A stretch of DNA of 64,000 nucleotides, taken from assembly GCF_001707755.1 (NCBI RefSeq), contig NZ_MBDL01000009.1, forward strand, positions 124,001 through 188,000, in the 5' to 3' direction. The DNA is from Acinetobacter celticus. Lineage in GTDB: Bacteria; Pseudomonadota; Gammaproteobacteria; Pseudomonadales; Moraxellaceae. Under the pieces are notes generated by a model. The model was given only the letters and a program-made list of their open reading frames with translations. It made no database searches and was not told where the DNA came from. The position numbers and the translations under genes were made by a program. Below, piece after piece: positions 33,654 to 57,911 of the stretch. Every line of letters starts with the position of its first letter. Within the stretch, counting starts at the first letter, position 1.

Positions 33654-34763
33654 ATGTATAAAACGATAGAAACCATGCTTGTAGAGATTCCTACAATCCG
33701 CCCACATAAAATGGCTGTGGCGACAATGCAGACACAAACCTTAGTTTTGGTCAAAATAACCACCAATGACGGTTTCACTGGATGGGGCGAAGCGACCACC
33801 ATTGGCGGTTTAGGTTATGGCGAAGAAAGCCCTGAAAGTATTAAAACCAATATTGATACCTATTTTAGCCCGCTCTTGAAATCGCTGTATGGACTAAATA
33901 TTGCGCAAATAATGCAGACGATTAAAAAAAATATTAATGGTAATCGCTTTGCAAAATGTGCCATTCAAACCGCCCTCTTAGATATTCACGCACAACGTTT
34001 AGCTTTGCCATTGAGCGAAATTTTAGGCGGTCGCTTACGTGATTCTATTCCTGTACTTTGGGTACTGGCTTCTGGTGATACAGAAAAAGATATTGCCGAA
34101 GCACAGAAAATGATTGAAGCTAAACGTCATAATATTTTCAAGCTTAAAATTGGTTCTCGCTCAGTTGAAGCCGATGTTGAACATGTATTAGCCATTAAAA
34201 AAGCCTTAGGAAAAGACATTTCAATTCGTGTCGATGTAAACCGTGCATGGTCTGAACTTGAAGCCATTAAAGGGATTCAAGCGTTACAAGATGGTGGCAT
34301 TGACCTCATTGAACAGCCTTGTGCGATTGATAATATTGATGCCATGCAACGCCTTACTCGCAAGTTTGATATTGCCATTATGGCTGATGAGTCTCTAATG
34401 GGGCCAAACACTGCTTTTCAATTGGCGAAACGCAATGCAGCCTCTGTTTTCGCTGTTAAAGTTGCACAATCTGGCGGTCTAATCGAAAGTTGCGAAGTCG
34501 GAAAAATCGCTCAACTTGCTGGTATTAATTTATACGGTGGCACAATGCTAGAAGGCCCTGTAGGAACTATCGCATCGGCACATGTGTTTTCAACATTTGA
34601 TAATTTGGCTTATGGTACGGAGCTATTCGGCCCATTATTACTCACTGAAGAAATTTTAAAAACGCCACTTCAATATCAGAACTTTGAATTACAAATTCCT
34701 CAAAGCGCAGGACTTGGTATTGAATTAGATGAAAACAAGATTGACCACTTACGTCATCAGTAA
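33654..34763 (+). CDS. catB: Muconate cycloisomerase
   Basis: A 369-residue enolase-superfamily enzyme turning cis,cis-muconate into muconolactone. The barrel carries the KxK base pair (FKLKIGSR), the metal ligands in DVNRAW, IEQPCAIDN and ADESL, and the second lysine in FAVKVAQSGG. Length matches the family. It is the first gene of the cat operon, under the CatM site; catC follows after 15 nt. Confidence 0.96.
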   Translation: MYKTIETMLVEIPTIRPHKMAVATMQTQTLVLVKITTNDGFTGWGEATTIGGLGYGEESPESIKTNIDTYFSPLLKSLYGLNIAQIMQTIKKNINGNRFAKCAIQTALLDIHAQRLALPLSEILGGRLRDSIPVLWVLASGDTEKDIAEAQKMIEAKRHNIFKLKIGSRSVEADVEHVLAIKKALGKDISIRVDVNRAWSELEAIKGIQALQDGGIDLIEQPCAIDNIDAMQRLTRKFDIAIMADESLMGPNTAFQLAKRNAASVFAVKVAQSGGLIESCEVGKIAQLAGINLYGGTMLEGPVGTIASAHVFSTFDNLAYGTELFGPLLLTEEILKTPLQYQNFELQIPQSAGLGIELDENKIDHLRHQ

Positions 34764-34778
34764 TTAAAGGAACAGAAT

Positions 34779-35069
34779 ATGCTTTTCCAAGTACGTATGG
34801 ATGTAAATATCCCTCGTGATCTACCCGCTGAACAAGTCAATGAAATTAAGGCTGTTGAAAAAGCCTACTCACAAGATTTACAGCGTCAGGGCAAGTGGCG
34901 TCATATTTGGCGTATCACAGGACAGTATTCAAATATCAGTATTTTTGATGTAGAAAGTAATGAAGAGCTACACAATATTTTGCAAGGTCTTCCGCTTTAT
35001 CCTTATATGAACATTGAGGTTATGGCACTAAACCGTCACCCGTCTTCAATTCGTGAAGATGACACCTGA
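34779..35069 (+). CDS. catC: Muconolactone delta-isomerase
   Basis: A 96-residue enzyme of the homodecameric CatC family converting muconolactone to 3-oxoadipate enol-lactone. MLFQVRMDVNIPRDLP, GKWRHIWRITGQYSNISIFDV and LPLYPYMNIEVMAL are full-length family signatures. AAAGGAAC precedes the ATG. It is separated from catA by 120 bases holding a perfect hairpin. Confidence 0.96.
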   Translation: MLFQVRMDVNIPRDLPAEQVNEIKAVEKAYSQDLQRQGKWRHIWRITGQYSNISIFDVESNEELHNILQGLPLYPYMNIEVMALNRHPSSIREDDT

Positions 35070-35085
35070 TTTTTAATCCTACACA

Positions 35086-35103
35086 GCCCAAAAGGTTTTG
35101 GGC
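35086..35103 (+). promoter_or_regulatory. Hairpin between catC and catA
   Basis: GCCCAAAA-GG-TTTTGGGC, a perfect 8-base-pair stem, followed by CATG, not a T-run. Probably an mRNA processing or stability element, not a terminator. Confidence 0.5.
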
Positions 35104-35189
35104 CATGTAAACAAAAAAATGTGGTCTATAAAAGCAAGCTGAACGCACGCCGATAAGCCCACAAAACTACATACTCAAGGAACAAAAGT

Positions 35190-36110
35190 ATGAACCGTCA
35201 AGAAATCGATGCATTAGTTAAACAAATGAACGTGGATACAGCGACTGGTGAAGTCCATCCTCGTGTACAACAAGTCGTTGTACGTTTGCTTGGTGATTTT
35301 TTCCAAGCCATTCAAGATTTAGATTTAACTCAAACTGAAGTTTGGAAAGGTTTGGAATATATCGTTGATTCTAGTAAATCAAATGAATTGGGTCTTTTGG
35401 CTGCAGGTCTTGGCTTAGAGCATTTCTTAGATCTTCATGCTGATGAAGTTGATGCGAAAGCAGGCATTACCGGTGGTACGCCACGTACCATCGAAGGTCC
35501 ACTCTATGTTGCTGGTGCACCTGAATCAGTTGGCTTTGCACGTATGGATGACGGTTCTGAATCTGACTATGTCGATACCTTATTCATTGAAGGCGTTGTG
35601 ACTGATACTGACGGTCAAATTATTCCAAATGCTAAAGTTGAAGTTTGGCATGCCAACAGCTTAGGTAACTATTCATTCTTTGATAGTTCACAATCTGAAT
35701 TCAACCTTCGTCGCAGTATCTTAACAGATACGAATGGTCAATATGTTGCTCAAACAACGATGCCTGTCGGTTATGGTTGCCCACCAGAAGGTACAACACA
35801 AGCGTTATTAAACAAGCTTGGTCGTCATGGTCAACGCCCTTCTCATGTGCATTACTTTATCTCTGCACCAGGCTATCGCAAGTTAACAACTCAGTTCAAC
35901 ATTGAAGGTGACAAATACCTTTGGGATGACTTTGCATTCGCTACACGTGAAGGCTTAATCGCTTCTGTAACTGACATTACTGATCCTGCTGAACTGGCTA
36001 AACGCGGTCAGGACAAACCAGTTAAACACATCACTTTTGATTTCAAACTGGTAAAAGACCTTGCTACAGCACCAACGTCTGAAGTTGATCGTCGTCGCGT
36101 TAGCGCTTAA
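35190..36110 (+). CDS. catA: Catechol 1,2-dioxygenase
   Basis: A 306-residue intradiol dioxygenase cleaving catechol to cis,cis-muconate with non-heme Fe(III). The helical N-terminal dimer domain is followed by the beta-sandwich with iron ligands Tyr161 (GNYSFFD), Tyr195 (VGYGCP), His219 and His221 (SHVHYF). CAAGGAAC lies before the ATG. In A. baylyi catA is apart from catBCIJFD and beside ben; here it is inside the operon between catC and catI, with its own hairpins on both sides. Confidence 0.96.
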   Translation: MNRQEIDALVKQMNVDTATGEVHPRVQQVVVRLLGDFFQAIQDLDLTQTEVWKGLEYIVDSSKSNELGLLAAGLGLEHFLDLHADEVDAKAGITGGTPRTIEGPLYVAGAPESVGFARMDDGSESDYVDTLFIEGVVTDTDGQIIPNAKVEVWHANSLGNYSFFDSSQSEFNLRRSILTDTNGQYVAQTTMPVGYGCPPEGTTQALLNKLGRHGQRPSHVHYFISAPGYRKLTTQFNIEGDKYLWDDFAFATREGLIASVTDITDPAELAKRGQDKPVKHITFDFKLVKDLATAPTSEVDRRRVSA

Positions 36111-36124
36111 GTCAATGATTTCCA

Positions 36125-36157
36125 CTGCAAGGCATGGCAAATGTCTTGCAGTATTTT
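36125..36157 (+). terminator. Terminator-like hairpin between catA and catI
   Basis: CTGCAAG (36125-36131) pairs with CTTGCAG (36145-36151), with an inner CAT/ATG, followed by TATTTTTAG. It may cause partial termination, lowering expression of catIJFD relative to catBCA. Confidence 0.6.
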
Positions 36158-36232
36158 TAGATTTTTATCATTAAATTTTCAATTAATTTTTTAATGCTAA
36201 AGATTTGCTTATTGCTCTTTAAGGCTCACAAC

Positions 36233-36919
36233 ATGATTGATAAAAGCACATCATCTTTAACAGAAGCACTTTCCCAAATTAAGGATGGCTCGACCATCAT
36301 GATTGGTGGCTTCGGAACAGCTGGTCAACCCGCTGAACTCATTGACGGGCTGATTGAATTAGGCGTCAAAGACTTAGTTATCATTAACAATAACGCTGGT
36401 AATGGTGATTATGGTTTGGCCAAACTGCTTAAAACAGGTGCAGTACGTAAAATCATTTGCTCTTTCCCACGTCAATCCGACTCTTGGGTTTTTGATGAAT
36501 TGTTCCGTGCTGGCAAAATTGAATTAGAACTGGTTCCACAAGGCAACTTGGCTTGTCGTATTCAAGCCGCAGGCATGGGTTTAGGTCCTATTTATACTCC
36601 AACAGGTTTTGGGACTTTACTGGCTGAAGGTAAACCGACTTTAAACTACGACGGCAAAGACTTCGTCTTAGAAAACCCAATCAAAGCAGACTTTGCTCTC
36701 ATTAAAGCCCATCAAGGCGACCGTTGGGGTAACTTGGTGTACAACAAATCTGCACGTAATTTTGGCCCGATCATGGCCATGGCTGCAGAGGTCACCATTG
36801 CGCAAGTGTCTGAAGTGGTTGAACTCGGTGCTTTAGATCCTGAGCACATCATCACTGCGGGTATTTTTGTCCAGCATGTGGTTGCTGTTGGCAAAAAACA
36901 ACTTGAACAATCGGCCTAA
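36233..36919 (+). CDS. catI: 3-oxoadipate CoA-transferase subunit A
   Basis: A 228-residue alpha subunit. DGSTIMIGGFGTAGQPAELI is the CoA-transferase glycine-rich start and NNAGNGDYGLAKLL follows the family. It moves CoA from succinyl-CoA to 3-oxoadipate together with CatJ. The start is at 36233, with AAGG nine bases upstream and the expected 228-residue length, not the frame opening at 36194. catJ follows after 17 nt. Confidence 0.94.
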   Translation: MIDKSTSSLTEALSQIKDGSTIMIGGFGTAGQPAELIDGLIELGVKDLVIINNNAGNGDYGLAKLLKTGAVRKIICSFPRQSDSWVFDELFRAGKIELELVPQGNLACRIQAAGMGLGPIYTPTGFGTLLAEGKPTLNYDGKDFVLENPIKADFALIKAHQGDRWGNLVYNKSARNFGPIMAMAAEVTIAQVSEVVELGALDPEHIITAGIFVQHVVAVGKKQLEQSA

Positions 36920-36936
36920 GACCTGAGGATTAAACT

Positions 36937-37590
36937 ATGAGCTATAGCAAACTCTCCCGCGATCAAATTGCAGAACGTGTGGCGCAAGATATTCCAGATG
37001 GTGCTTATGTTAATTTAGGCATTGGTTTACCGACCAAGATTTCCAATTATTTACCTGCAGACAAAGACGTGTTCTTACATTCTGAAAATGGGCTATTGGC
37101 CTTTGGCCCACCACCTGCCAAAGGTGAAGAAGACCCTGAGCTGATTAATGCTGGTAAAGAATTCGTGACCTTACTTGAAGGCGGTGCTTATTTTCATCAT
37201 GGTGACTCTTTTGCCATGATGCGTGGTGGTCACCTTGATATTGCTGTGTTGGGTGCTTTCCAAGTGGCTGAAAATGGCGACTTGGCCAACTGGCATACCG
37301 GCGCACCCGATGCGATTCCTGCCGTTGGCGGCGCCATGGATTTGGCAGTCGGTGCAAAGAAAGTCTTTATCACCACCGATCATGTGACTAAAAAAGGCGA
37401 ACCAAAGATTGTCGCTGAACTGGCTTATCCTGCGACAGGGTTGAAATGTGTCGATCGTATCTACACTGACCTGTGTGTGATTGATGTTACGGCTGAAGGC
37501 ATGAAAGTCATTGAGAAAGTGGAAGGTCTTTCATTTGCAGAATTGCAGGCAATGACTGGTGCCAAACTGATTGATGCAACTCAGGGTTAA
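36937..37590 (+). CDS. catJ: 3-oxoadipate CoA-transferase subunit B
   Basis: A 217-residue beta subunit. VNLGIGLPTKISNY and the active-site glutamate motif HSENGLLAFGPPP mark the catalytic CoA-transferase subunit; GGHLDIAVLGAFQV follows. It acts with CatI. A palindromic repeat element fills most of the 128 bases before catF. Confidence 0.94.
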   Translation: MSYSKLSRDQIAERVAQDIPDGAYVNLGIGLPTKISNYLPADKDVFLHSENGLLAFGPPPAKGEEDPELINAGKEFVTLLEGGAYFHHGDSFAMMRGGHLDIAVLGAFQVAENGDLANWHTGAPDAIPAVGGAMDLAVGAKKVFITTDHVTKKGEPKIVAELAYPATGLKCVDRIYTDLCVIDVTAEGMKVIEKVEGLSFAELQAMTGAKLIDATQG

Positions 37591-37605
37591 TTTTTAAGAT
37601 TTATT

Positions 37606-37702
37606 AAATCCCCCTAAATCCCCCTTTGAAAAAGGGGGACTTGCCAGAACAACTGGATTGAGAGTCTCCCTCCTTTATTAAAGGAGGGATTAAGGGAGGA
37701 TT
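37606..37702. repeat. REP-like palindromic element between catJ and catF
   Basis: An imperfect inverted repeat about 97 bases long. The outer arms run from AATCCCCCTAAATCCCCC (37607 on) to the GGGAGGATT end at 37702. Nested hairpins are CCCCCTTTGAAAAAGGGGG (37620 on) and CCTCCTTTATTAAAGGAGG (37669 on). G- and C-tracts stand out sharply against the AT-rich genome. A shorter relative occurs between catF and catD. It resembles intergenic repeats dispersed in Acinetobacter genomes. Confidence 0.75.
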
Positions 37703-37718
37703 CGAGAGAAAAGCTAAA

Positions 37719-38921
37719 ATGAAAAACGCTTATATCGTAGATGCGATTCGTACCCCATTTGGTCGTTATGCAGGTGGTTTAGCCCCTGTCCGTACCGATG
37801 ATTTGGGTGCCATTCCAATTCAAGCCTTGATGCAACGTAATCCATCGGTGAACTGGGCATTGGTCGATGACATCATTTATGGTTGTGCCAACCAAGCCGG
37901 TGAAGATAACCGTAATATCGGCCGTATGTCGGCACTTTTAGCAGGTGTGCCGTATCAAGTGCCTGCCACCACAGTGAATCGTTTATGTGGTTCATCCCTC
38001 GATGCCGTTGCCATGGCAGCACGTGCCATTAAAGCTGGTGAAGCAGATTTGATTATTGCTGGCGGTGTAGAAAGCATGAGCCGTGCGCCTTTGGTGATGG
38101 GTAAATCTGACACTGCTTTTGGTCGTGCTCAGAAACTTGAAGACACCACCATGGGTTGGCGTTTTATCAATCCAAAGTTGAAAGAGCTGTATGGTGTTGA
38201 AACCATGCCACAAACTGCTGAAAACGTGGCAACGCAGTTCAATATTCACCGTGCCGATCAAGATCAGTTTGCGCTCACTAGCCAACAACGTACCGCAGAT
38301 GCGCAAGCCCGTGGTTTCTTCGACAAAGAAATTGTACCTGTAAGCATTCCGCAGCGTAAAGGTGAGCCTGTGGTCATCGCCAAGGATGAACATCCACGTG
38401 CCACCACCATTGAAGCCTTGACCAAACTTAAACCTGTAGTGAAAGCCGAAGGTTCTGTAACAGCAGGCAACGCTTCAGGTATTAATGATGGTGCAGCAGC
38501 GTTGTTGATTGCATCTGATGATGCGATTGAAAAGTATGGCTTGAAAGCGCGTGCCAAAATTATTGCTGCAACCACTGTTGGTGTTGAACCGCGCATTATG
38601 GGCTTTGCTCCTGCACCTGCGATCAAAAAACTATTGGCTCAAACCGGTTTAACGCTTGAGCAAATGGACGTGATTGAGCTGAATGAAGCCTTTGCAGCGC
38701 AAGCTTTGGCGGTGACGCGTGATCTAGGCATTGCTGATGGTTCAGACAAAGTCAATCCGAATGGTGGTGCCATTGCCTTGGGCCATCCACTGGGTGCTTC
38801 GGGTGCGCGTTTGGTCACGACGGCCTTGAATCAGTTGGAAGCCACGGGTGGAACCTATGCCTTGTGTTCAATGTGTATTGGCGTGGGTCAAGGTATTGCG
38901 CTGATTATTCAACGGGTTTAA
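37719..38921 (+). CDS. catF: 3-oxoadipyl-CoA thiolase
   Basis: A 400-residue thiolase splitting 3-oxoadipyl-CoA into succinyl-CoA and acetyl-CoA. Nucleophile Cys90 in [11 protein letters not shown], His356 in [16 protein letters not shown] and Cys386 in SMCIGVGQG are all present. Length is exactly that of PcaF/CatF enzymes. The ribosome-binding site is GAGAGAAAAG close to the edge of the repeat element. It is the last enzymatic step although not the last gene. Confidence 0.95.
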
Positions 38922-38944
38922 CCAATCATAACTATTTAAGATAT

Positions 38945-38981
38945 TTCCCCTCCTTTTTTAAAGGGAGGTCGAGAGGGATTT
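38945..38981. repeat. Shorter palindromic element between catF and catD
   Basis: CCTCCTTTTTTAAAGGGAGG hairpin followed by GAGAGGGATTT, resembling the right half of the 37606-37702 element. Its right end supplies the GAGAGGG that serves as ribosome-binding site for catD. Confidence 0.65.
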
Positions 38982-38982
38982 A

Positions 38983-39759
38983 ATGCCAAAATTTATATCC
39001 AATGATGCGGAAATTAATTACCAAACATTTGGTGATGCGAGTCAACCTGCGATTATTTTTTCTAATTCGTTAGGTACCCAATTGAATATGTGGCAACCGC
39101 AGATTAGTTTTTTTGAAAAGAAATTCTACGTCATTTGCTACGATACCCGTGGACATGGTGCATCATCTGCGCCTCAAGGGCCGTACAGTATTGAACAATT
39201 GGGCACAGATGTCGTTCACTTACTCGATCATCTAAATATCGAAAAAGCCAGCTTTTGTGGCATTTCTATGGGTGGGCTTACAGGTCAATGGCTGGCCATT
39301 CATCACCCTGAACGCTTTAACCACGTGATTGTTTGCAACACGGCAGCAAAAATTGGTCAAGAGCAAGCATGGAACGACCGTGCACAACTTGTTCGTGAAC
39401 AAGGCTTAAAACCGATTGCAGAAACGGCAGCATCACGTTGGTTTACCGAACCCTTTATCCGAAGCAACACAGCAATTGTAGAATCTTTGAGTAACGATCT
39501 TGGTGCTGGCAGCCCAGAAGGTTATGCAAGTTGTTGTGAAGCTTTGGCTAAAGCGGACTTACGTGCAGATCTAAAAACAATAACCGTGCCTGTGCTGATC
39601 ATTGCAGGTCAACAAGACCCTGTCACCACAGTGGCAGATGCACAATATTTGGTCAATCAGATTCCAAATAGTCAGTTGATTGAAATTAATGCCTCACATA
39701 TTTCAAATATAGAATGTCCAGAAGATTTTTCTCACGCTTTAAACACTACTTTTCATTAA
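38983..39759 (+). CDS. catD: 3-oxoadipate enol-lactonase
   Basis: A 258-residue alpha/beta-hydrolase hydrolysing 3-oxoadipate enol-lactone to 3-oxoadipate. The triad is visible: Ser95 in CGISMGGLTG, Asp in AGQQDPVT (about 210) and His in NASHISNIE (about 238). YDTRGHGASSAP is the oxyanion-side loop. Its ribosome-binding site lies in a repeat element. Two hairpins downstream end the operon. Confidence 0.94.
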   Translation: MPKFISNDAEINYQTFGDASQPAIIFSNSLGTQLNMWQPQISFFEKKFYVICYDTRGHGASSAPQGPYSIEQLGTDVVHLLDHLNIEKASFCGISMGGLTGQWLAIHHPERFNHVIVCNTAAKIGQEQAWNDRAQLVREQGLKPIAETAASRWFTEPFIRSNTAIVESLSNDLGAGSPEGYASCCEALAKADLRADLKTITVPVLIIAGQQDPVTTVADAQYLVNQIPNSQLIEINASHISNIECPEDFSHALNTTFH

Positions 39760-39776
39760 TATTGATTTTCTGCTTT

Positions 39777-39806
39777 AGATGTAATGTAGGCACATTACAT
39801 CTTTTT
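39777..39806 (+). terminator. Terminator of the cat operon
   Basis: AGATGTAATGT, AGGC loop, ACATTACATCT, TTTTATT. Perfect 11-base arms, 17 nt after catD. Confidence 0.88.
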
Positions 39807-39894: not shown

Positions 39895-40644
39895 TTATTT
39901 TTTTGATTCATGCATTTTGCGTACCATCGCATCAAAAAATTTCGTTGCAAAACCACTTTCAGTAATGAGCATTGCGGTTAAATCCGTACACTTTTGCTTT
40001 ACATCTTCACTCAAAGGGAAATCTTCTCCGCCCAAAGCTCCAGCCTGACATTGAATTTCAGCAGCGCGTTGCACAGTCCACAATAAGAAAAATGCTTTTT
40101 CTATACTGCTCTCCCCCACAGCAATACCATGATTACGCAATACTAAAATATGCTTATCTGCTAGATGCTGAATCATCCGCTGTTTTTCTTCCTGAAATAA
40201 GGTAATTCCTTCAAAAGCATGATAAGCGACTCGACCATATAACTGTGCGCCATAGAAACTATCATAAGAAAAACCATTTTTTTTCTGCACCACAGCACTA
40301 ATTGGTGTTGTATGGGTATGAATCAAACAGCGAATATCATGTCTAGCGCCATGCACTGCACTGTGCAAGGCAAAGCCTGCGGGGTTTGCATCATATTCAG
40401 AAGGTTCTACTTTATTGCCCTCTAAATCGACTTTCAGTAAATTTTCTGGCGTCACTTCACTATAATTTAACCCGAAAGGATTGACTAAGTAATGATTCTC
40501 ATCGCCAGGTAATCGTGCTGAAATATGATTAAAAATAGTTTCAGTCCAGCTAAAATAATCAACCAAATGGTAACAATGCGCTAATTTTACCCGTAGCTCC
40601 CATTCCTGCTGACTCATATTCAAGGGTTGAATGCTCGCGTTCAT
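39895..40644 (-). CDS. Class II aldolase/adducin-family protein
   Basis: A 249-residue protein. Metal-ligand motifs CLIHTHTTP (about 102-106) and LRNHGIAV are the zinc sites of class II aldolases, and FNHISARLPG and NPFGLNYSEVT are typical of the family. Many members are decarboxylases, epimerases or aldolases, so the reaction is open. It is the last gene of the minus-strand operon begun by livK, 12 nt after the ketopantoate-reductase-like gene. A role in processing a small acid released from the imported compound is a guess. Confidence 0.82.
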   Translation of the reverse strand: MNASIQPLNMSQQEWELRVKLAHCYHLVDYFSWTETIFNHISARLPGDENHYLVNPFGLNYSEVTPENLLKVDLEGNKVEPSEYDANPAGFALHSAVHGARHDIRCLIHTHTTPISAVVQKKNGFSYDSFYGAQLYGRVAYHAFEGITLFQEEKQRMIQHLADKHILVLRNHGIAVGESSIEKAFFLLWTVQRAAEIQCQAGALGGEDFPLSEDVKQKCTDLTAMLITESGFATKFFDAMVRKMHESKK

Positions 40645-40656: not shown

Positions 40657-41649
40657 TTAATGTTTCAGTGATTGCTCACTCAAATAAGCGGTTAAATTAC
40701 AAATATGCTTGGTGACTGGCATAGGACAATTAAATTGCTCTGCCAACTCAAAAACTGCTTCCGCTATTCCTGCCATTTCTAAGGGCTGTTTTTTTTGATA
40801 ATCATGCCACATGGATGTATGCACATTTCCCATGTCTGCACCCAACTGTAAAAAAGTCACGGGGTCAATCGTAATGCGTGCACCATAACTGGCAGCCACT
40901 TGACGAACTTCTTGGGTAATTTGCAAAGCTATTTCATGTAAGCGCGGGTGCGCGTAAATATCTTTTAAAGTAGCACCTGTCACTACAGAAAGTGGGTTTG
41001 AACTTAAGTTCGCCATCACCTTAGTCCAAATCTGGTCTCGAATTTGATCAGTAACTCTTAACTCAATACCTGTATCTGCAAAAAGATTTTGAATGGCTTC
41101 TAAGCGCGTCGTCACTTGATTATTTGGCTCGCCCAAAATCAGCAAATATGGATTATCCGATTCCACCTTGCCATATGACTTTAATTTTGCAGTGATAAAC
41201 ACCACTGCACCCATTAAGTTCGCCAAAGGAAATTGTTCAATCAATTGCCTATTTTCATCCAAACAGCGAATCGTTTGAATATCATCATTGTTCTGCCCAT
41301 GATAAAAATACCAAAATGGCAGACCATTCATAAGTGGAATAACCACAGTTTCAGCATGCACAGCCTGTTGAATAGAGGTTGTAACCTGATGAAGCGCATT
41401 CGATTTTGTAGCAATAAAAATAAGATCTTGTGGTTCAAGTTCTGCAATGTCTTGCACCACCCGATAGGGCGTCAACTGATATTCACCTGTTAAATCTTTT
41501 AGATGAATCCCTTGCTTCGATAACGCCTGAAAATTATCACCACGTGCAATTAAACTCACTCGTTCACAGCCCGCTAAAATTAGACGGGCTGCCAGTGTAC
41601 AGCCAATTGCACCTGCGCCTAAAATAGAAATTTTGGTCTCTTTCTTCAT
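40657..41649 (-). CDS. Ketopantoate reductase (PanE/ApbA)-family oxidoreductase
   Basis: A 330-residue NADP-dependent 2-hydroxyacid/2-oxoacid reductase-like protein. ISILGAGAIGCTLAARL is the Rossmann loop, DLIFIATKSNAL and WTKVMANLSSNPLSVVTG carry the family's catalytic Lys and Asn-Ser region. True PanE acts in pantothenate synthesis, but position between an ABC importer and an aldolase suggests a catabolic reductase acting on another 2-oxo acid. Neighbour gaps are 12 and 25 nt. Confidence 0.83.
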   Translation of the reverse strand: MKKETKISILGAGAIGCTLAARLILAGCERVSLIARGDNFQALSKQGIHLKDLTGEYQLTPYRVVQDIAELEPQDLIFIATKSNALHQVTTSIQQAVHAETVVIPLMNGLPFWYFYHGQNNDDIQTIRCLDENRQLIEQFPLANLMGAVVFITAKLKSYGKVESDNPYLLILGEPNNQVTTRLEAIQNLFADTGIELRVTDQIRDQIWTKVMANLSSNPLSVVTGATLKDIYAHPRLHEIALQITQEVRQVAASYGARITIDPVTFLQLGADMGNVHTSMWHDYQKKQPLEMAGIAEAVFELAEQFNCPMPVTKHICNLTAYLSEQSLKH

Positions 41650-45281: not shown

Positions 45282-45376
45282 GACCGCCTGATCCTTGCTA
45301 TTTTTCAGGGGCAAACGCTCCCTAAGAGCTATTACACCCTGAATTTGATAGCAGATTAATTAATTAAAAAAACTTA

Positions 45377-49869: not shown

Positions 49870-50892
<1,023 letters not shown>

Positions 50893-50902
50893 TTATCTTT
50901 AT

Positions 50903-51859
50903 TTAAATATCTAAAACGAGACGTGCCGATTTAGCCCGAGAACAGCACACCAATATTTGTTCATTGCTGGCTTTCTCTTCATCGGTAAAATACACATCAC
51001 GGTGATCTGGTTCACCTTCAATCACATCGCACATGCATGTTCCGCAAACCCCTTGCTCACATGACATTTCGATCTCAATGCCTTCGCGTGCCAAAGCTTG
51101 TAAAATGGTTTCTTCAGCATTCACCATAATAATTTTGCCACTTTGTTGAGCAAAAACCTCAAAAGCATCGCCACCCGTTTCCACGTTTACCTGAAAATAT
51201 TCTTTGTGAATTTGATTTTCAGGAAATTCCTGTGTAAGCGCTAAATTAATCACCCAATCCATAAATCCATTCGGGCCACAGGTATAAATATGACTTTCTA
51301 CATCAATATCTTGTATGGCTGATTGGAAAAACTCACGGTGACTGGCACCTTCGGATTTAAAATGGAAAGTGGTAAATTGAGCCAGTTCCCCATTTTTAAT
51401 TTCATCGACAAAAGCACAGCGTTCTGGACTTGCACCACAATAATGCAACTCAAAAGACTCGCCTTGATGAGCCAACTGATAAGCCATCGTAATCAGTGGT
51501 GTAATGCCTATTCCACCGCCAATCAATACTGAATGCTTGGCTTTCACCAAAGAAAAAAGGTTCTTCGGTTCACTGACCTGAATATGCATACCATCTTTTA
51601 AATCATCAAAAGCAGATACAGAGCCACCGCGTGACTCAGGATCTCGCAAAATTCCTAAGCGAAAAATGCCTGTTTCACTCGGGTTTTGACAAAGTGAATA
51701 CTGTCGCACCATGCCGTTCGGCAAATGCACATCAATATGTGCACCTGCTTCAATTTTAGGTAAAGTTGTAGATGTTGCAGATTCAAATTCCATGACTGCA
51801 ATATTTTCGCCTTCTACATGGCGGTTTTTGACAACAACATTATAAAGTTCAGTCATCAT
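50903..51859 (-). CDS. iacF: Rieske dioxygenase reductase component IacF
   Basis: A 318-residue phthalate-dioxygenase-reductase-type electron carrier. Flavin-binding RQYSLCQNP, NAD-binding SVLIGGGIGITPLITMA, and a C-terminal plant-type [2Fe-2S] domain with CEQGVCGTC and a final Cys in QILVCC. It passes electrons from NADH to the IacC/IacD oxygenase. GGGAG precedes the ATG. Gaps of 31 and 76 nt to neighbours. Confidence 0.9.
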   Translation of the reverse strand: MMTELYNVVVKNRHVEGENIAVMEFESATSTTLPKIEAGAHIDVHLPNGMVRQYSLCQNPSETGIFRLGILRDPESRGGSVSAFDDLKDGMHIQVSEPKNLFSLVKAKHSVLIGGGIGITPLITMAYQLAHQGESFELHYCGASPERCAFVDEIKNGELAQFTTFHFKSEGASHREFFQSAIQDIDVESHIYTCGPNGFMDWVINLALTQEFPENQIHKEYFQVNVETGGDAFEVFAQQSGKIIMVNAEETILQALAREGIEIEMSCEQGVCGTCMCDVIEGEPDHRDVYFTDEEKASNEQILVCCSRAKSARLVLDI

Positions 51860-51890
51860 GAATCTCCCTTTTATGCATCAAGCCCAAGGC

Positions 51891-52628
51891 TTAACGCATA
51901 AATAATCCGCCGTTAATATCCCACGTTGCACCTGTTACGAAACTGGCATTTGGACTGGCCAATAACGCACATGTTTCAGCAATAAATTCCATACTGCCCA
52001 AAGCTTTGACAGGAATATTCTGAATAAACTGTGCCATTTTTTCATCCGATACCACGCTATGCACAATTGGAGATTCCATTGGGCCTGGTGCGACCGCATT
52101 GACAGTGACACCTTTGGCAGCAAACTCTTTGGCAAAAATTTTCGTCAGGGTCACAATGGCACCTTTCGTTGCTGCATAATGCGCCCCCGTTGCTGTACCG
52201 CCGTTTTGACCCGCTAAGGACGCCATATTGACAATACGGCCATAACCTTTATCTGCCATATATTTGCCAATAATTTGACAAGACTGAAATGTACCGCGCT
52301 GATTCACTTGAGTAATCCAGTCAAAATCAGCCGCAGTAATCTCTAAAACAGGCGTTGCTTTAGTAACTGTCGCGTTATTTATTAACACATCAAGTTTGGA
52401 AAATTTCTCTTCAATCCATTGCACAGCAGCATGAAAGTCTGCCTCAACAGAAATATCTAGCTTCAAAGGAAACATATTATTAGCATTTACACTGCGCACT
52501 TTAGCTGCTTCAGCTTTTTCTAATGTGCTTGCAGATAAAATCACTTGATGACCTTGGCTAGCAAAGTATTCTGCAATGACATTTCCCAAACCCGATGCTG
52601 CACCAGTCACTAAAACAACCTGTTTCAT
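51891..52628 (-). CDS. iacE: Short-chain dehydrogenase IacE
   Basis: A 245-residue SDR. TGAASGLG is the cofactor loop, NNATVTKATP the NNAG-like strand, and NMASLAGQNGGTATGAHYAATKG holds the catalytic Ser, Tyr and Lys. In iac pathways IacE acts on an oxidised indole-acetate intermediate on the way to dioxindole-3-acetate (from memory of published work). Tight operon position between iacD and iacF supports the assignment. Confidence 0.88.
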   Translation of the reverse strand: MKQVVLVTGAASGLGNVIAEYFASQGHQVILSASTLEKAEAAKVRSVNANNMFPLKLDISVEADFHAAVQWIEEKFSKLDVLINNATVTKATPVLEITAADFDWITQVNQRGTFQSCQIIGKYMADKGYGRIVNMASLAGQNGGTATGAHYAATKGAIVTLTKIFAKEFAAKGVTVNAVAPGPMESPIVHSVVSDEKMAQFIQNIPVKALGSMEFIAETCALLASPNASFVTGATWDINGGLFMR

Positions 52629-52637
52629 GTTCTTCTC

Positions 52638-53123
52638 CTAAAGAATGTAACTGATACCAGCCAAAGTATCGGTAGAATTGACTAAGTTAATAATTTTACG
52701 ATTAATTTTAAAACCTTGTTCAGCATCTCGAATCAAGTGAAACGTCACATCTGCGGTATAGTGTTTCAAGTTTTCTTTGCGGAACTCACGTAAGTTTTGC
52801 GCGCAACGTAAAATGATTTCATCATCTTCATCTTTGATAATACGAATACGAGACACACTACGCACGGTATTGGCTTTTGGAGAAGTTGAAATGGCTTCAC
52901 CATTGTCTAAACGGTTTACTCGTAATTGACGCATATGATGATTGTCATAGGCATAGTTCAAATTATTTTCATAATCCGTCAAAGCTGGATCAATAGGAAT
53001 AATATATACGCCTGTTTTATTCCACAGATTTAACCATGCTTCATGTTCATAATGGTCGAGCATATCCGCTTCGGCCCAAATAAAAGCAGTCACTTCATTC
53101 AATAAATTTAAATCGATTTTCAT
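52638..53123 (-). CDS. iacD: Ring-hydroxylating dioxygenase small subunit IacD
   Basis: A 161-residue beta subunit of the NTF2-fold class that packs with Rieske alpha subunits. EVTAFIWAEADMLDHYEHEAWLNLW and SVSRIRIIKDEDDEI are typical. It has a structural role in the alpha3beta3 oxygenase. It begins 10 nt after iacC. Confidence 0.9.
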   Translation of the reverse strand: MKIDLNLLNEVTAFIWAEADMLDHYEHEAWLNLWNKTGVYIIPIDPALTDYENNLNYAYDNHHMRQLRVNRLDNGEAISTSPKANTVRSVSRIRIIKDEDDEIILRCAQNLREFRKENLKHYTADVTFHLIRDAEQGFKINRKIINLVNSTDTLAGISYIL

Positions 53124-53133
53124 TGCTCTCTCC

Positions 53134-54411
53134 TTAAGCCGTCATCAACTTTTTCCACTGCTGATACGCAGCCCGCATACCTGTTTCAGCACTGACATCA
53201 CTTTTTAAACCATCTTCAGTTTTTACTTCACCTGGTAGGCCACGATTGAGCATGATCCATAAGTCATCACCTGCACTGGCACCATGTTGTACACGCTCCC
53301 ATGCTTCTGCATCATCAGGTGTACCAAAACCAAATGGGCCTTGGAAATGTTCATGTAAGCGTAAGCGGTATTGGTTGGCCGTTTGTGGCCCACCATCCAT
53401 GGTAATTACAGAATGATGAATTTCTGTTTTATCAACGGCAATTGGTTGCATCACACGGAAGAACGCCATTGAACACGCAATATTTGGGAAAATATTTAAG
53501 TTAAAACCAGAACCACCTACAGCACGAACAATACGACGCACCTCCAACTCTTCATGACCTTCATCACGCAAAGCCTGAGCCAAATCTTCAAAACGTTCTT
53601 GAATAGGACGTTCCATCAATTCTTCTTCAAGATCGACCAATTCAGGAATCATCACCATCACACTGTGACCATTGCCTAAATCTTCAACAAAACCAGGCTG
53701 ATTATCAAAGTTAAAGAGTTCTTCGGTTTTCTCATCCACAGAGCTTAAGAATGATTTATGCACCAATGGGAAGTGATAGGCATCAGTGGTATTTTCTAAC
53801 TGAATTTTCCAGTTACCAGGGAAGGTAAAACGATGTTCGCCCAGAACTTTGATTGGATAGCCCGCACCCTGTTTCATAAACAGGTCAATCCATTTTTTCG
53901 CAGCACCAAGGAAATCTTCTAACGGCTCAACATCTTGGTTGAACGAGGCAAAAATCATACCGTTGTATTCTTCAACACGCAGGCTAATCAAAGGTAATTC
54001 AGACTTATCTAAGCATTCACCATAGCTTTCAGGAGATGGCACACCACGCAAGCTACCGTCTAAGGCATAGCTCCAACCGTGGTAAGGACATACAAAACTA
54101 TTGGTTTTCCCTTTTTTATGCTCACAAACTGTAGCAGCACGGTGACGGCAACGGTTCAGTAATACATGAACTTTCTTTTTACGGTCACGTACTGCAACCA
54201 CAGGTTGCTTACCGATATTCATGGTTTTATAACTACCCGCATCTGGAATTTCGCTGGCATGCGCAACCCAAACCCAAGTGCTGTAATAGATTTTTTCCAT
54301 TTCATCATCAAAGATTTTTTCATCTTTATACAAAGAAGTATGTGCGCGGTCTGATTGCACGAGTTCATTGTAGTCAATATCAATATTTTGCATTGGGATG
54401 ATACTGTTCAT
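53134..54411 (-). CDS. iacC: Rieske ring-hydroxylating dioxygenase large subunit IacC
   Basis: A 425-residue alpha subunit. Rieske cluster ligands are Cys88, His90 (NRCRHRA) and Cys108, His111 (CPYHGW). Mononuclear iron ligands are His213 and His218 (DAYHFPLVHKSF), with bridging Asp210. In the iac pathway this oxygenase leads from dioxindole-3-acetate toward catechol. Length and context with iacD and iacF are as expected. Confidence 0.92.
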   Translation of the reverse strand: MNSIIPMQNIDIDYNELVQSDRAHTSLYKDEKIFDDEMEKIYYSTWVWVAHASEIPDAGSYKTMNIGKQPVVAVRDRKKKVHVLLNRCRHRAATVCEHKKGKTNSFVCPYHGWSYALDGSLRGVPSPESYGECLDKSELPLISLRVEEYNGMIFASFNQDVEPLEDFLGAAKKWIDLFMKQGAGYPIKVLGEHRFTFPGNWKIQLENTTDAYHFPLVHKSFLSSVDEKTEELFNFDNQPGFVEDLGNGHSVMVMIPELVDLEEELMERPIQERFEDLAQALRDEGHEELEVRRIVRAVGGSGFNLNIFPNIACSMAFFRVMQPIAVDKTEIHHSVITMDGGPQTANQYRLRLHEHFQGPFGFGTPDDAEAWERVQHGASAGDDLWIMLNRGLPGEVKTEDGLKSDVSAETGMRAAYQQWKKLMTA

Positions 54412-54441
54412 GTTAATGATCCTTTTAAATTTATCCTTGAA

Positions 54442-54969
54442 TTATTTCTGAGACGGTACTGGCAGTGTCGCTGTACTGTTCCAATGAGAGACTGGTCGGC
54501 TAAAAATATTTTCCGTTTGAAAATGCTTAATTTTCCAGTGTCCGTCCTGTTGTTGCTTAAATGTCACAGTGAGTTTGGCTGCATTTAAATGGCTCTGATT
54601 CTCTCTGAATGTTGAGGTTTGCAACATCAACCAAGTTGCTTTTGCATGCGTATCTTCAACATAGATTTGTTCTGAACTGACAAAATGTGCGTTCATCACG
54701 AAATGCGATTCTTTTTGGGTATAGCCCTGAAACATGTCGTGAATTGCTTGACGTGAACTAAAATGACCGAAAGATTGTGCATATTTTTCGCCAATGCCTT
54801 CCCAAATACTGTCTTCGTCAAACAAATCCATTAATTCATTTAAGTCAGTATTGGCATCTAAAGCATCACAAATTTCCATATAACGATTTATGCAGTTTCG
54901 AATTGCAACGTGCGCTTCCAATTCTGCTAAGCGTTGTAAAATTGCGGTCAAATCCATTTTGTCATTCAT
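54442..54969 (-). CDS. iacI: SnoaL/NTF2-like protein of the iac operon
   Basis: A 175-residue NTF2-like-fold protein; ELEAHVAIRNCINRYMEICDALD and LMDLFDEDSIWEG are SnoaL_4-type features, and FGHFSSRQAIHDMF follows. Published iac clusters contain two small genes of unclear role, iacB and iacI; the SnoaL-like fold points to iacI, which I assign tentatively. It lies 30 nt from both iacA and iacC. No separate iacB is visible. Confidence 0.7.
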   Translation of the reverse strand: MNDKMDLTAILQRLAELEAHVAIRNCINRYMEICDALDANTDLNELMDLFDEDSIWEGIGEKYAQSFGHFSSRQAIHDMFQGYTQKESHFVMNAHFVSSEQIYVEDTHAKATWLMLQTSTFRENQSHLNAAKLTVTFKQQQDGHWKIKHFQTENIFSRPVSHWNSTATLPVPSQK

Positions 54970-54999
54970 TCTAAATACTCGCGTATGAAGCCAATTTGC

Positions 55000-56166
55000 T
55001 TATAAATAGCCCGGTGCTGGTTTTAAGCCAAAGCTGATTAAACCTGCATTTTGTAAAGTTGCATCTCCCATAAAGGCATGCTGAGTCACCACATTGGTGT
55101 CATTCACAAAACGGCTAAATACATTGTTGGTATAAATGGCGGTCATCCCTGCGAGCATTTGCATTTTTCGGGCAACGCGGGCAGCAACACGGGCAGCATG
55201 AGTGCAAGACAGACGCATATCACTGATTTGTTCCGCAGTTGGGGTGCGACCTGCAACGACTTCACTCCAAACGTTATCCATAGTTTCATAAAACCATGTA
55301 CGCGCAGCTTTAAACTCAGCTTCTGCTTGTGCAAATTCATACTGAGTTACAGGACGGTTTGCAATTTCTGCACCACCCGTAATAGAAGCCTTTCCTGGGG
55401 CGAGGTTCTTAAATTCATCTAAAGCAGCAGCAGCTACACCAATCCCCACGACTGTTAAGACCTGAGTTGCAAGTGACAAAGACGGATATTTAAAAAATGG
55501 CTCTGGAAGTTTAGACGGCTCTCCGCGTACAAATGTCCACTCTTTCGCGACCAAAACATCTTCAACGATGAGGTCATGACTTCCCGTTCCTTTTAAGCCC
55601 ACGGTATCCCAAGTCATTTCAATTTTTACTTTTTTTGCAGACATGACGGCCATGCGGGGCAAGCCTTGTGCTTCATTGCCCTTTTGTGGCGCAATACCGA
55701 CACCAACAATATCGGCGCCCATGCAACCACTAGAAAATTTCCAGCGCCCTTTAACAACCAGACCTTCATCGGTCATTTCTGCTGGCTGTGGTGGAAAAAT
55801 ACCGCCTGCAAAAACAATATCAGGGGAATCTTTATAAAGCTCTTTGAGCGTTTCTTCTGGCAAACTTCCTAAATAAGCGGGGCTCATACCAAAACTGGCT
55901 ACCCATCCGACAGAACCATCGGCCATAGATAATTTTTCTATCAACTCGCAAAACGTACGTGGCGAAATTTCAGAACCACCAAAACGCTTCGGAACAAATG
56001 CACGATATACACCTAATTTTTTTAATTTTTCAATAATGTCCTGACTGACATAAGCTTGATTATCAAATTCACCCGTACATGCACGTTCACGGATTTCCTG
56101 ACACAAAGCCGTCAAATCTACTGCGGTATTATCCATTACAAAATCCTTTGTAGATAAATCATTCAT
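55000..56166 (-). CDS. iacA: Acyl-CoA-dehydrogenase-fold flavin monooxygenase IacA
   Basis: A 388-residue protein of the acyl-CoA dehydrogenase superfamily, monooxygenase (HpaB/DszC-like) branch, without the acyl-CoA catalytic Glu context. MADGSVGWVASFGMSPAYLGSL and KFSSGCMGADIVG fit this group. It starts IAA breakdown by oxygenating the indole ring with reduced flavin from IacG. A strong AAGGAG lies seven bases before the ATG at 56166; a second ATG at 56136 also has AAAGGA. Confidence 0.9.
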   Translation of the reverse strand: MNDLSTKDFVMDNTAVDLTALCQEIRERACTGEFDNQAYVSQDIIEKLKKLGVYRAFVPKRFGGSEISPRTFCELIEKLSMADGSVGWVASFGMSPAYLGSLPEETLKELYKDSPDIVFAGGIFPPQPAEMTDEGLVVKGRWKFSSGCMGADIVGVGIAPQKGNEAQGLPRMAVMSAKKVKIEMTWDTVGLKGTGSHDLIVEDVLVAKEWTFVRGEPSKLPEPFFKYPSLSLATQVLTVVGIGVAAAALDEFKNLAPGKASITGGAEIANRPVTQYEFAQAEAEFKAARTWFYETMDNVWSEVVAGRTPTAEQISDMRLSCTHAARVAARVARKMQMLAGMTAIYTNNVFSRFVNDTNVVTQHAFMGDATLQNAGLISFGLKPAPGYL

Positions 56167-56184
56167 TCGTTAACTCCTTGTAAC

Positions 56185-57297
56185 TTATTGCGTTGCCTTC
56201 ATGACAAATTCAGCAATTGCACAAAGCTGTTCATCCGCATTTTTTTTAGCAACGATTTGCAATCCAACAGGTAAACCTTGTTTTGTCTCTAAAGGCACTG
56301 AAATTGCAGGATGCCCCGACAAATTAAATGGACGAACCAGCCCAGTTAAATTCAAAAATGCAACTGTATTTTCTGCATCTGCAACTAGTGGTGGAATTTG
56401 TGGCAAGGTTGGTAACAACAATGCATCGTATTGGCTCAGTAAAGCATCTACTTCTTGGGTGAAACGCTCTTTCACTTGTGCAGCTTCTGTAACCTGTTGC
56501 TGCGTCGTTTCAGAGGCTTGCAGTAAACGAGCATGAACATCTGAACCCAAAAGACCCGTTTCAGTTAAAGCACCATACGCCTGCCAGTTTTCAAAGTTGA
56601 TAATTTGCATACCCGCATGAAATGCATCATCAAAAGATGCAAGGTCTACATTCACTACAGTTAATCCAGCTTGCACAAGATATTCAGCAATACATGTATT
56701 CACTTCGTCACTGGCCGGCACATTAAGTATTGCAAGCTTAGGCGCTTGCTCTAGGGCTTTTGCAGGGTGAAAACTTGGATCAATAATCTGCATAGCGGTT
56801 TCAATCATCTGAACTGAATTTGCAAATGGGCCAACGCAGTCTAATGAACTACTGTCAGGATGCACGCCTTCACGGCTTACACGGCCAAAAGTAGGCTTTA
56901 AACCAAAAACACCACAGCAGGCTGCTGGCATACGAATTGAACCACCGGTATCTGTACCTAAAGTGAAATCAGCCAGTTTTGCTGCCACAGCGGCAGCCGA
57001 ACCGCTTGATGATCCACCTGGAATGAGTGCGGGATATTTAGGATTAAGCGCAGTGCCAAAAGCACGGTTAATGCCAGTAATGCCAAAGGCCAATTCATGC
57101 AAATTTGTTTTAGCGGTAATTTGACAGTCTGCAGCTAAAATACGATCAACCACAACAGCATTTTGCGTAGCCACAGGAACATGCTCTAGCGCCTTACTTC
57201 CTGCTACAGTCTGAAAACCTTGAATATCGATAGAGTCTTTAACCATTACAGTGAACTTTCCTGACCCTAATTGGACATCCTTTGCCACAATATTCAT
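56185..57297 (-). CDS. iacH: Amidase-signature protein IacH
   Basis: A 370-residue amidase-signature hydrolase. The Ser-cisSer-Lys triad is visible: Lys in VMVKDSIDIQG near residue 20, cis-Ser and nucleophile in IPGGSSSGSAAAV and GTDTGGSIRMPA. It lacks the usual 60-70 residue N-terminal segment of amidases, as short members do. First gene of the iac operon. It may open a lactam ring or cleave an IAA amide; its step is not certain in the literature I recall. Confidence 0.85.
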   Translation of the reverse strand: MNIVAKDVQLGSGKFTVMVKDSIDIQGFQTVAGSKALEHVPVATQNAVVVDRILAADCQITAKTNLHELAFGITGINRAFGTALNPKYPALIPGGSSSGSAAAVAAKLADFTLGTDTGGSIRMPAACCGVFGLKPTFGRVSREGVHPDSSSLDCVGPFANSVQMIETAMQIIDPSFHPAKALEQAPKLAILNVPASDEVNTCIAEYLVQAGLTVVNVDLASFDDAFHAGMQIINFENWQAYGALTETGLLGSDVHARLLQASETTQQQVTEAAQVKERFTQEVDALLSQYDALLLPTLPQIPPLVADAENTVAFLNLTGLVRPFNLSGHPAISVPLETKQGLPVGLQIVAKKNADEQLCAIAEFVMKATQ

Positions 57298-57329
57298 TCA
57301 CTTTTCCATGTATTTTTATATATAGGACT

Positions 57330-57358
57330 AATATCTGAAAAAGCAATGTAATTGTCAA
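57330..57358 (-). promoter_or_regulatory. Promoter of the iac operon
   Basis: On the minus strand: perfect TTGACA (57353-57358), 17 bases, GATATT (57330-57335). Transcription would begin near 57323, 26 nt before iacH. An inverted repeat TGTAAT-N15-ATTACA (57347-57373) covers the -35 box. Confidence 0.65.
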
Positions 57359-57425
57359 GTATTTTTCATTACAGAGAACAAAGAAAATATTTTTTATTTT
57401 TGTATAATGTCACTATCTGTTTTCA

Positions 57426-57441
57426 CAAAGTTATCACTTTG
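57426..57441. promoter_or_regulatory. Candidate IacR (MarR) operator next to the iacR start
   Basis: CAAAGT-TATC-ACTTTG, a perfect 6-base-arm palindrome ending two bases before the iacR ATG and just downstream of a TATAAT at 57403-57408. Position suits autorepression. Binding is inferred. Confidence 0.45.
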
Positions 57442-57443
57442 CC

Positions 57444-57911
57444 ATGCTTACTCATTTAGAAAATTTTCTGCCCAACAATGAACCTAGCAGTCTACAAAGC
57501 TATCCTTTTTTCTGGATTTCCCAAGTCAATGGGAAATATACACAGCTCATTGAGAAGTCTATAAAAAAATTAGGAATAGACAATACACGACGTAAAATTA
57601 TTTTAAGTACCAATGCATTAGGACAAGCTAGTATTACTGAAATTGCCAATTTATCGACCCTTAAACTGACTACTGCAACCAAGGCTATTTATCGCCTAGT
57701 TGAAGATGACATTGTCGAGGTTTTTTCTTCCGAATCTGACGAACGCATCTCTATGGTCAAGTTGACAGAAAAAGGAAAAAAGTTGGTAGAGCAAATTAAT
57801 CAAATCAGCCAAGTGACACTTTCAGGTATTCTAAATGCATTTGAAGATGAAGAATTAATTCAAATCAACGCGCAGATGAAAAAAATATTTGAGCTAATGC
57901 CATCTAGCTAA
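57444..57911 (+). CDS. iacR: MarR-family regulator IacR
   Basis: A 155-residue winged helix protein. GQASITEIANLSTLKLTTATKAIYRLVED is the recognition region and [21 protein letters not shown] the wing of MarR proteins. It is divergent from iacH over 146 bases, as in known iac loci, where IacR represses iac genes and IAA relieves it. No Shine-Dalgarno sequence is visible, so the transcript may be nearly leaderless. Confidence 0.88.
   Translation: MLTHLENFLPNNEPSSLQSYPFFWISQVNGKYTQLIEKSIKKLGIDNTRRKIILSTNALGQASITEIANLSTLKLTTATKAIYRLVEDDIVEVFSSESDERISMVKLTEKGKKLVEQINQISQVTLSGILNAFEDEELIQINAQMKKIFELMPSS

Follow-up and report, generated by a model that had tools for sequence, protein, structure and literature searches.

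Candidate feeder modules between the iac and cat gene clusters of Acinetobacter celticus

Indole-3-acetate (IAA), an auxin, is converted to catechol by the products of the iac genes, and catechol is taken to succinyl-CoA and acetyl-CoA by those of the cat genes; both pathways are established. Auxin-removing bacteria can reverse root growth inhibition (PMC9613470; all papers are cited here from their available excerpts). In Acinetobacter baumannii ATCC 19606 and A. lactucae NRRL B-41902 the published gene order is iacR with iacHABICDEFG (PMC12502551). In ATCC 19606 the cat genes lie near iac (PMC11676955), and the linkage of iac and cat is already in print (PMC11676955, PMC7225977). Marinomonas MWYL1 and NFXS50 carry genes for a class II aldolase, a 2-dehydropantoate 2-reductase and a Liv-type ATP-binding cassette (ABC) importer next to iac and iacR, a neighbourhood published as of unknown function; some Marinomonas strains have an alpha-hydroxy-acid dehydrogenase in the iac cluster (PMC11373566). 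The iad operon of Variovorax ends at anthranilate (PMC9613470) and includes an ABC importer with the solute-binding protein IadK2, which binds IAA with nanomolar affinity (PMC10374108). Here we describe a locus of this kind in Acinetobacter celticus. The window, i.e., the whole stretch of DNA analysed, covers 64,000 nucleotides of contig NZ_MBDL01000009.1 (assembly GCF_001707755.1; 3.09 Mb, 15 contigs, 99.99% complete). It holds an iac cluster, a cat cluster and, between the two, an importer, two accessory enzymes and an acylase.

The window has the same iacR and iacH-A-I-C-D-E-F-G order as the A. baumannii and A. lactucae loci but lacks iacB, and its cat genes lie near iac, as in ATCC 19606. 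Like Marinomonas, it has aldolase, reductase and Liv-type genes adjoining iac and iacR; unlike Marinomonas, it carries an acylase, which does not appear in the published Marinomonas table, and has its cat genes in the same block, whereas those of Marinomonas are elsewhere. With Variovorax it has in common a solute-binding protein of aromatic-acid type and an ABC importer standing with auxin genes, but its own route is predicted to lead to catechol, and its LivK lacks part of the IAA pocket of IadK2. The first-pass annotation had read the block as an auxin utilisation island with linked upper (iac) and lower (cat) pathways. Every gene it listed (cat, importer, two enzymes, acylase, iac, iacR) was recovered in its place as an uninterrupted open reading frame (ORF), and the two pathways are linked in one block. 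Its wider interpretation is partly supported. We stand evenly divided on whether the block is one modular indole-acetate island with exchangeable feeder modules between iac and cat. The company that the neighbours keep with auxin genes in related bacteria, extended to distant bacteria for the importer and the two enzymes, suggests a role in supplying the pathway with compounds related to auxin. The substrates, the co-regulation in the cell and the direction of flux given below are inferred.

The restriction of the neighbours to iac-carrying genomes was seen in a survey of 175 Acinetobacter genomes, in which presence was judged at fixed E-value limits per query (G and L numbers are our handles for genomes and loci). 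iacA was found in 70 genomes, livK in 23, the acylase in 22, the aldolase in 24 and a catA-type gene in 138. livK occurred in 23 of the 70 iacA-positive and none of the 105 iacA-negative genomes (Fisher 5e-11, ignoring relatedness), and the acylase in 22 and none, respectively (Fisher 2e-10, ignoring relatedness). The co-occurrence of the liv and acylase genes with iac, a check set beforehand, was thereby borne out by 23/23 livK carriers and 22/22 acylase carriers. For the aldolase the figure was 23/24; the exception (G004) has the gene on a 6.2-kb contig. livK lay 6.5–17 kb downstream of iacA on the same strand in 21/23 genomes and the acylase 7–16 kb downstream on the opposite strand in 19/22. 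In G072 one contig begins with part of iacE, followed by iacF, iacG, and then the acylase and liv. A. baumannii record NZ_CP064203.1 has an 82% identical acylase about 12 kb from iacA. A livK search across the class gave only two other copies in 369 genomes (E 1e-60), with neighbours unlike iac. Some copies are damaged (loci L062, L091, L043 and L110): the acylase is broken in G006, livMG is broken or split in G035, and in G072 there is a break with insertion-sequence (IS)-like genes after iacE. Plasmids pTS134338 and pYUSHP14-1 and the 309,964-bp plasmid of strain NCu2D-2, all from Acinetobacter, carry iacA together with liv-kpr-ald (L127, L128, L105).

The acylase (46917–49415, plus strand) is an Ntn hydrolase of penicillin G acylase (PGA) type, with a Penicil_amidase match, a match at 1e-166 to a PGA structure and Ser286 as the B1 nucleophile. 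A lipobox-like LAGC lies near its N-terminus, and the protein is probably an envelope lipoprotein. The envelope acylase proposed in the first-pass annotation is present with this lipobox-like N-terminus, but it is of PGA and not of PvdQ type: a PvdQ-type acyl-homoserine-lactone acylase is ruled out by 92.8 bits to NF051460 against a cut-off of 950. PGA (4pem, 7reo and 3k3w, presumably from Kluyvera and Alcaligenes) and the window acylase have the nucleophile and most pocket residues in common, namely the Ser nucleophile position, Gln-B23, Phe-B57, Trp-B154, Ile-B177, Asn-B241 and Arg-B263. They differ in the lipobox-like N-terminus, in the iac linkage and at three pocket sites: in the 21/21 intact aligned copies (the broken G006 copy excluded) B24 is Gln for Phe, B69 is Val for Ala, and B71 is Ser. 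Phe B24, which we take to be part of the phenylacetyl pocket of PGA, is therefore found in none of the 21. The altered pocket might fit indole better than a phenyl ring. Gln-B24 and Val-B69 are also found in a 49% identical acylase of Novosphingobium rosa, which two genes separate from an aldolase of this family; neither iacA nor iacC was visible on its contig piece. In plants a large share of the auxin is kept as amide conjugates and as indolic acids related to it. Arylacetyl amides, and chiefly indole-3-acetyl-amino-acid conjugates, are the most likely substrates of the acylase, which is probably co-regulated with the OprD porin and would free IAA by their hydrolysis.

A promoter element ties the acylase to the OprD-family porin gene on the cat side (31080–32345, minus strand; Pfam OprD 2e-104). 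The upstream regions of both genes contain a common 38-bp element, GTATRA-NN-ATATAC-YT-N8-ATGGAAAATTACAT, at 46776–46813 (plus strand, one mismatch) 5' of the acylase and at 32518–32555 (minus strand, no mismatch) 5' of oprD. These are the only two sites in the 3.09-Mb genome; no third was found at up to three mismatches, and the reversed-pattern control gave none. The porin, which the annotation had placed beside cat, is tied to the system by this element, common only to oprD and the acylase. Across the genus the element occurs in 42/175 genomes, all 42 of them iacA-positive (0/105 iacA-negative), and the reversed pattern had no match. Of the 81 sites, the acylase and the cat side account for 21 each, the iacR side for 29 and other contigs for 7, with 3 elsewhere; as the pattern was built from the acylase and oprD groups, its presence there is by construction. 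The third class of sites lies 5' of a major facilitator superfamily (MFS) permease gene in six of six inspected loci (four from the 29 sites 4–12 kb on the iacR side, two from 3 kb). The acylase of G149, away from iac, keeps the element. Porin, permease and acylase look like a small uptake regulon. A short acylase-like ORF carrying the element was also seen in G035.

Wider control of the block received less support. Comparison of the iacH and livK promoters gave the 11-mer GAMAATTACAT, which occurs in exactly four window promoters (expected 0.22; 0/100 shuffles reached four). It appears as GACAATTACAT at 57346–57356 (minus strand), overlapping the TTGACA box of the iacH promoter, and as GAAAATTACAT at 46584–46594 (minus strand) 5' of livK, a short match in common with iacH that is weak evidence. 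With one mismatch allowed, 6 sites were found against 6.4 expected. The wider sequence splits the four promoters: the 38 bp are common to acylase and oprD but missing from iacH and livK. Given the chance-level count and this split, the reading of IacR as a regulator of the entire block was dropped, and we make no claim that liv and iac are controlled jointly. CatM presumably binds ATAC-N7-GTAT. This motif lies 5' of catB at 33556–33570 (plus strand) and was found in 6/7 catB and 2/25 livK upstream rows. It was found in 0/22 acylase and 0/23 oprD rows, and CatM control of these two genes was rejected (these counts include the window genome twice for the acylase and G075 twice for both oprD and livK).

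Next to catD lie ald (39895–40644, minus strand; Pfam Aldolase_II), encoding a class II aldolase/adducin-family enzyme with iac-linked relatives, and kpr (40657–41649, minus strand), encoding a ketopantoate-reductase-family oxidoreductase (KPR). To follow this pair outside Acinetobacter, named genomes were scanned with an aldolase alignment. The scan gave 452 relatives, and the figures that follow are for the best 80 of the 452. These lean to Thioclava because a Thioclava protein led the query, some links are hidden by contig ends or by the limit of 10 kb on the flanks, and the counts come with no random-locus baseline. A locus was called iac-linked if it had at least two iac genes within 10 kb, and KPR was called at 34% identity. 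Iac-linked loci numbered 51/80, and iacA with iacC was present in 38/80. KPR was present in 66/80; 49 of these 66 were iac-linked, vs 2/14 without KPR. The importer was of tripartite ATP-independent periplasmic (TRAP) type in 29 loci (21 iac-linked), of Liv type in 19 (17 iac-linked) and neither in 32 (13 iac-linked). The association of kpr and ald with iac in other classes, with exchange of the importer, is thus observed; on a Thioclava plasmid, iacHABICDEFG, a TRAP importer, kpr and ald stand in one run. An aromatic aminotransferase gene accompanies kpr and ald in L131, L180, L193 and L201, and ald, with no KPR seen, in L182. These aminotransferase-ald loci are 4/80 plus Novosphingobium EMRT-2, and L180 and L182 also carry iac. 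On a conjugative IncP plasmid of Delftia acidovorans (L134), iacA-iacE-iacF-iacG-kpr adjoins an IS1071-type transposase, and no iacC, iacD, iacH or iacI was seen in 21 kb. On a plasmid of Azospirillum B510 (L126), a gene for an IacH-like amidase (53%) is divergent from a livKHMGF-MarR set (LivK 66%), with no other iac genes in 29 kb.

Ketopantoate reductases have a GxGxxG motif and catalytic Lys, Asn, Ser and Glu residues. In KPR, G10, G12, G15, N107, K209, S278 and E290 were invariant in 6/6 sequences (numbers of the aligned row; the protein's own numbers are one higher). In the aldolase the metal histidines of HxH and NHG were invariant in 6/6, and Gly occupied, also in 6/6, the position of Glu73 of FucA, which we take to be the catalytic Glu. 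Membership in the fuculose-type class II aldolases was rejected because of this replacement, which also makes a plain retro-aldol role doubtful. Pseudomonas putida 1290 has no counterpart of ald and kpr in its iac cluster according to the table in PMC11373566, and is reported not to grow on indole-3-lactate or indole-3-pyruvate (PMC7225977). With these observations, the iac company and the aminotransferase neighbours in view, side-chain conversion of indole 2-oxo and 2-hydroxy acids is the putative role that we favour for kpr-ald. KPR as a 2-oxo/2-hydroxy acid oxidoreductase and the metal-dependent enzyme of class II aldolase fold would turn side chains of indole-3-lactate/indole-3-pyruvate type into IAA. 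A TauD-family dioxygenase gene lies near ald, mostly directly after it, in eight loci (L048 and seven others).

The importer belongs to the Liv/HAAT type and comprises a solute-binding protein, two permeases and two ATPases, encoded on the minus strand by livK (45377–46540), livH (44244–45314), a livM-livG fusion (42445–44247) and livF (41675–42448). The ABC importer of the first-pass annotation thus stands, with the correction that LivM and LivG are one 600-aa protein; its LivG part, like LivH and LivF, was assigned by family match and its LivM permease part by length and gene order. LivK matches Pfam Peripla_BP_6. Its nearest solved structures are 3sg0 and 4dqd, followed by 7ylt and a group of proteins of Rhodopseudomonas palustris type. 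We take 3sg0 and 4dqd to bind aromatic 2-oxo acids, for which our literature search gave no confirmation. 7ylt was taken as IadK2, since S104, N126, F168, W172 and R199 fit at one offset; Thr125 does not, and F308 and Y311 fall outside the mapping. The Acinetobacter LivK copies agree among themselves at the mapped contact sites. Their APVG stretch and the contact Arg also occur in the Liv-type proteins recovered by the aldolase scan. LivK as an IadK2 orthologue or IadK2-type IAA-binding protein was ruled out by its pocket residues: Ser104 and Arg199 are kept, but Trp172 is Tyr, Phe168 is Thr, and Asn126 is Gly or Thr depending on the alignment. By these contacts LivK looks like an aromatic-acid binder, and the most likely cargo of livKH(MG)F is an indolic or aromatic acid.

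The space between iac and cat varies across the genus. Up to 20 kb downstream of iacA was taken in all 70 genomes (75 loci; some ended early at contig ends). The usual order was iac, a feeder zone and, on the other strand, cat. In at least 40/70 genomes catB, catD or catF lay within the stretch, and in others unrelated genes followed iac. Recurrent genes in the 75 loci were those for a FeaR-type regulator (41), a StyD/FeaB-like aldehyde dehydrogenase (37), a copper amine oxidase (29), a 437-aa protein (29) and a glucose-methanol-choline (GMC) oxidoreductase (28). The 437-aa protein (L053:8170-9483 and relatives), which stands beside the amine oxidase in its 29 loci, matched nothing in Pfam at E 1e-3 or in NCBIfam at E 1e-30; in Azospirillum lipoferum 4B a 28% relative adjoins iac. 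The slot-type copper amine oxidase was found in 49/175 genomes but not in the window genome, and its presence in the iacA-negative G003 and G010 shows that it is not confined to iac genomes. On plasmids of Martelella, Gemmobacter and Novosphingobium, genes for GMC, aldehyde dehydrogenase or amine-oxidising enzymes likewise lie close to the iac clusters. The acylase changed 15 times, feaR 9 times and liv 6 times on an IacA tree; IacA alone was used, as four or five rows had implausibly long branches when IacA, IacC and IacE were concatenated. We read this space as a slot for feeder modules. The feaR, amine oxidase, GMC and aldehyde dehydrogenase set of other Acinetobacter would fit conversion of tryptamine, tryptophol or indole-acetaldehyde to IAA.

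In the clusters that flank the slot, iacG-F-E-D-C-I-A-H (49870–57297, minus strand) and iacR (57444–57911, plus strand; MarR family) were assigned by family matches and gene order: iacA, C, D, E, F, G, H and I are all present (reductases, short-chain dehydrogenase/reductase, Rieske alpha and beta subunits, SnoaL, monooxygenase, amidase) and fit the known iac order. The adjacent iacC-iacD of the window is also recorded in an iac survey (PMC9613470). catBCAIJFD (33654–39759, plus strand) comprises muconate cycloisomerase, muconolactone isomerase, catechol 1,2-dioxygenase, 3-oxoacid CoA-transferase A and B, 3-oxoadipyl-CoA thiolase and enol-lactonase, and is preceded by the LysR regulator gene catM (32633–33550, minus strand; NF040710, 580.7 bits against a curated cut-off of 580). 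By homology, IAA would pass through iac to catechol and on through cat to succinyl-CoA and acetyl-CoA. The route had been called complete, which is not supported as worded: iacA and iacI are separated by a 30-bp gap (54970–54999), and an iacB query matched nothing in the window genome. The same query was positive, directly after iacA, in 37/175 Acinetobacter genomes at E 1e-10. iacB was absent from 33 of the 70 iacA-positive genomes, the window genome included, and its presence changed only twice on the IacA tree. The window cluster is an iacB-less variant rather than the canonical iac cluster, and this state looks like an old, tolerated loss. The route to catechol can count as complete only if IacB is dispensable; the loss common to 33/70 genomes suggests this and does not prove it. 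IacB has been proposed to work with IacE (PMC9613470); the available text of PMC7296048, a paper on A. pittii, mentions 'iacB' once. IacG (49870–50886) has 338 aa and resembles the reductase of p-hydroxyphenylacetate hydroxylase; in L060, L064, L095 and L106 a short RutF-like flavin reductase takes its place.

In its fullest form, the island reading combines an auxin storage-form system with a portable adaptor. In the former, porin and envelope PGA-family lipoprotein, under one private promoter element that serves an MFS permease in relatives, would free IAA from amide conjugates. In the latter, the importer-KPR-aldolase set, which accompanies iac in three classes of Proteobacteria and can have either an ABC or a TRAP importer, would add indole-3-lactate and indole-3-pyruvate. 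We put this form forward tentatively. Several observations weigh against the island reading. livK is absent in 47/70 and the acylase in 48/70 iacA genomes, so neither is needed for IAA use. liv lies 170 kb away from iac in G111 and the acylase 40 and 75 kb away in G087 and G149; the G087 acylase has no 38-bp element. Liv-linked oprD copies mostly lack the element, and G101, with no acylase, keeps a site. As iacH and livK have no such element 5' of them, liv may respond to other signals than acylase/OprD. In 29/80 aldolase loci fewer than two iac genes were seen. Of these 29, 10 still have an importer of TRAP or Liv type, so the set is also met where no iac is visible, either because contigs end there or because it serves another pathway. 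In Novosphingobium EMRT-2, aminotransferase-kpr-ald lies about 280 kb from iacA on the same plasmid. To these comes the partial agreement of LivK with the IadK2 contacts. It bears on another account, in which Liv imports IAA itself, as thought for IadK2 and its ABC importer in Variovorax, and kpr-ald handle an iac product (a side-chain fragment, or an isatin/isatinate-like intermediate between dioxindole-acetate (DOAA) and catechol). The nanomolar IAA binding of IadK2 (PMC10374108), the TRAP importer in Liv's place in Thioclava, kpr adjoining iacG in the Delftia plasmid, and the DOAA-to-catechol steps, which are unassigned in the excerpts consulted (PMC9613470, PMC7225977), all agree with it. 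We consider it unlikely, however, given the differences at F168, N126 and W172, the lack of livK in 47/70 iacA genomes, which excludes the set from any universal core step, and the aminotransferase beside ald in five loci, which points upstream of IAA.

The acylase might serve another purpose, either to scavenge aromatic amides, phenylacetyl amides among them, or to break down acyl-homoserine lactones, and stand in the island only as a regional convenience. PGA family members prefer phenylacetyl amides, most pocket residues are as in PGA, and two copies stand away from iac, one of them without the element. We doubt this account, since all 22 carriers are iacA-positive, the pocket differs at three sites in 21/21, the PvdQ score is far under the cut-off, and the displaced G149 copy keeps an element found only in iacA-positive genomes. 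Acinetobacter groups catabolic genes in general, and the modules come and go on the IacA tree, so the neighbours could be a neutral by-product of clustering with no common function; the restriction to iacA genomes, the unique common promoter element and the kpr-ald-importer set beside iac in other classes make this highly improbable. The chance is similarly slight that the iac part is decaying in this species, with a non-functional route to catechol. The absence of iacB from locus and genome and the proposed partnership of IacB with IacE would favour such decay, but the remaining iac ORFs are uninterrupted, and 33/70 iacA genomes lack iacB with only two changes on the tree.

The iac and cat clusters, their linkage and the aldolase-KPR-ABC genes beside iac in Marinomonas are already known. 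Our limited literature search, weak evidence since accounts may be in print, found no description of a PGA-type acylase at iac or of its element in common with OprD, of TRAP replacing Liv beside iac-kpr-ald, or of the iacB-less half of Acinetobacter iac loci. The published iac work consulted, in the excerpts available, deals with free IAA. If the acylase and the importer-KPR-aldolase set feed iac, substrate range and not the core pathway would explain the differences between iac loci, and neighbours now listed as of unknown function would gain concrete, cheap tests.

An ACS transporter gene (29278–30684) lies beside cat in the window, and in four genomes (L046, L047, L052, L061) a homologue (68% in G172) is located between the acylase gene and catD. 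Beyond the iac side of the block, an M48 peptidase gene is followed by the core genes purA and hisZ (58286–62315). At 5903–9031 the window also encodes a pair of an MdlD-like aldehyde dehydrogenase and a GMC oxidoreductase, 27% and 41% identical to the feeder-type enzymes.

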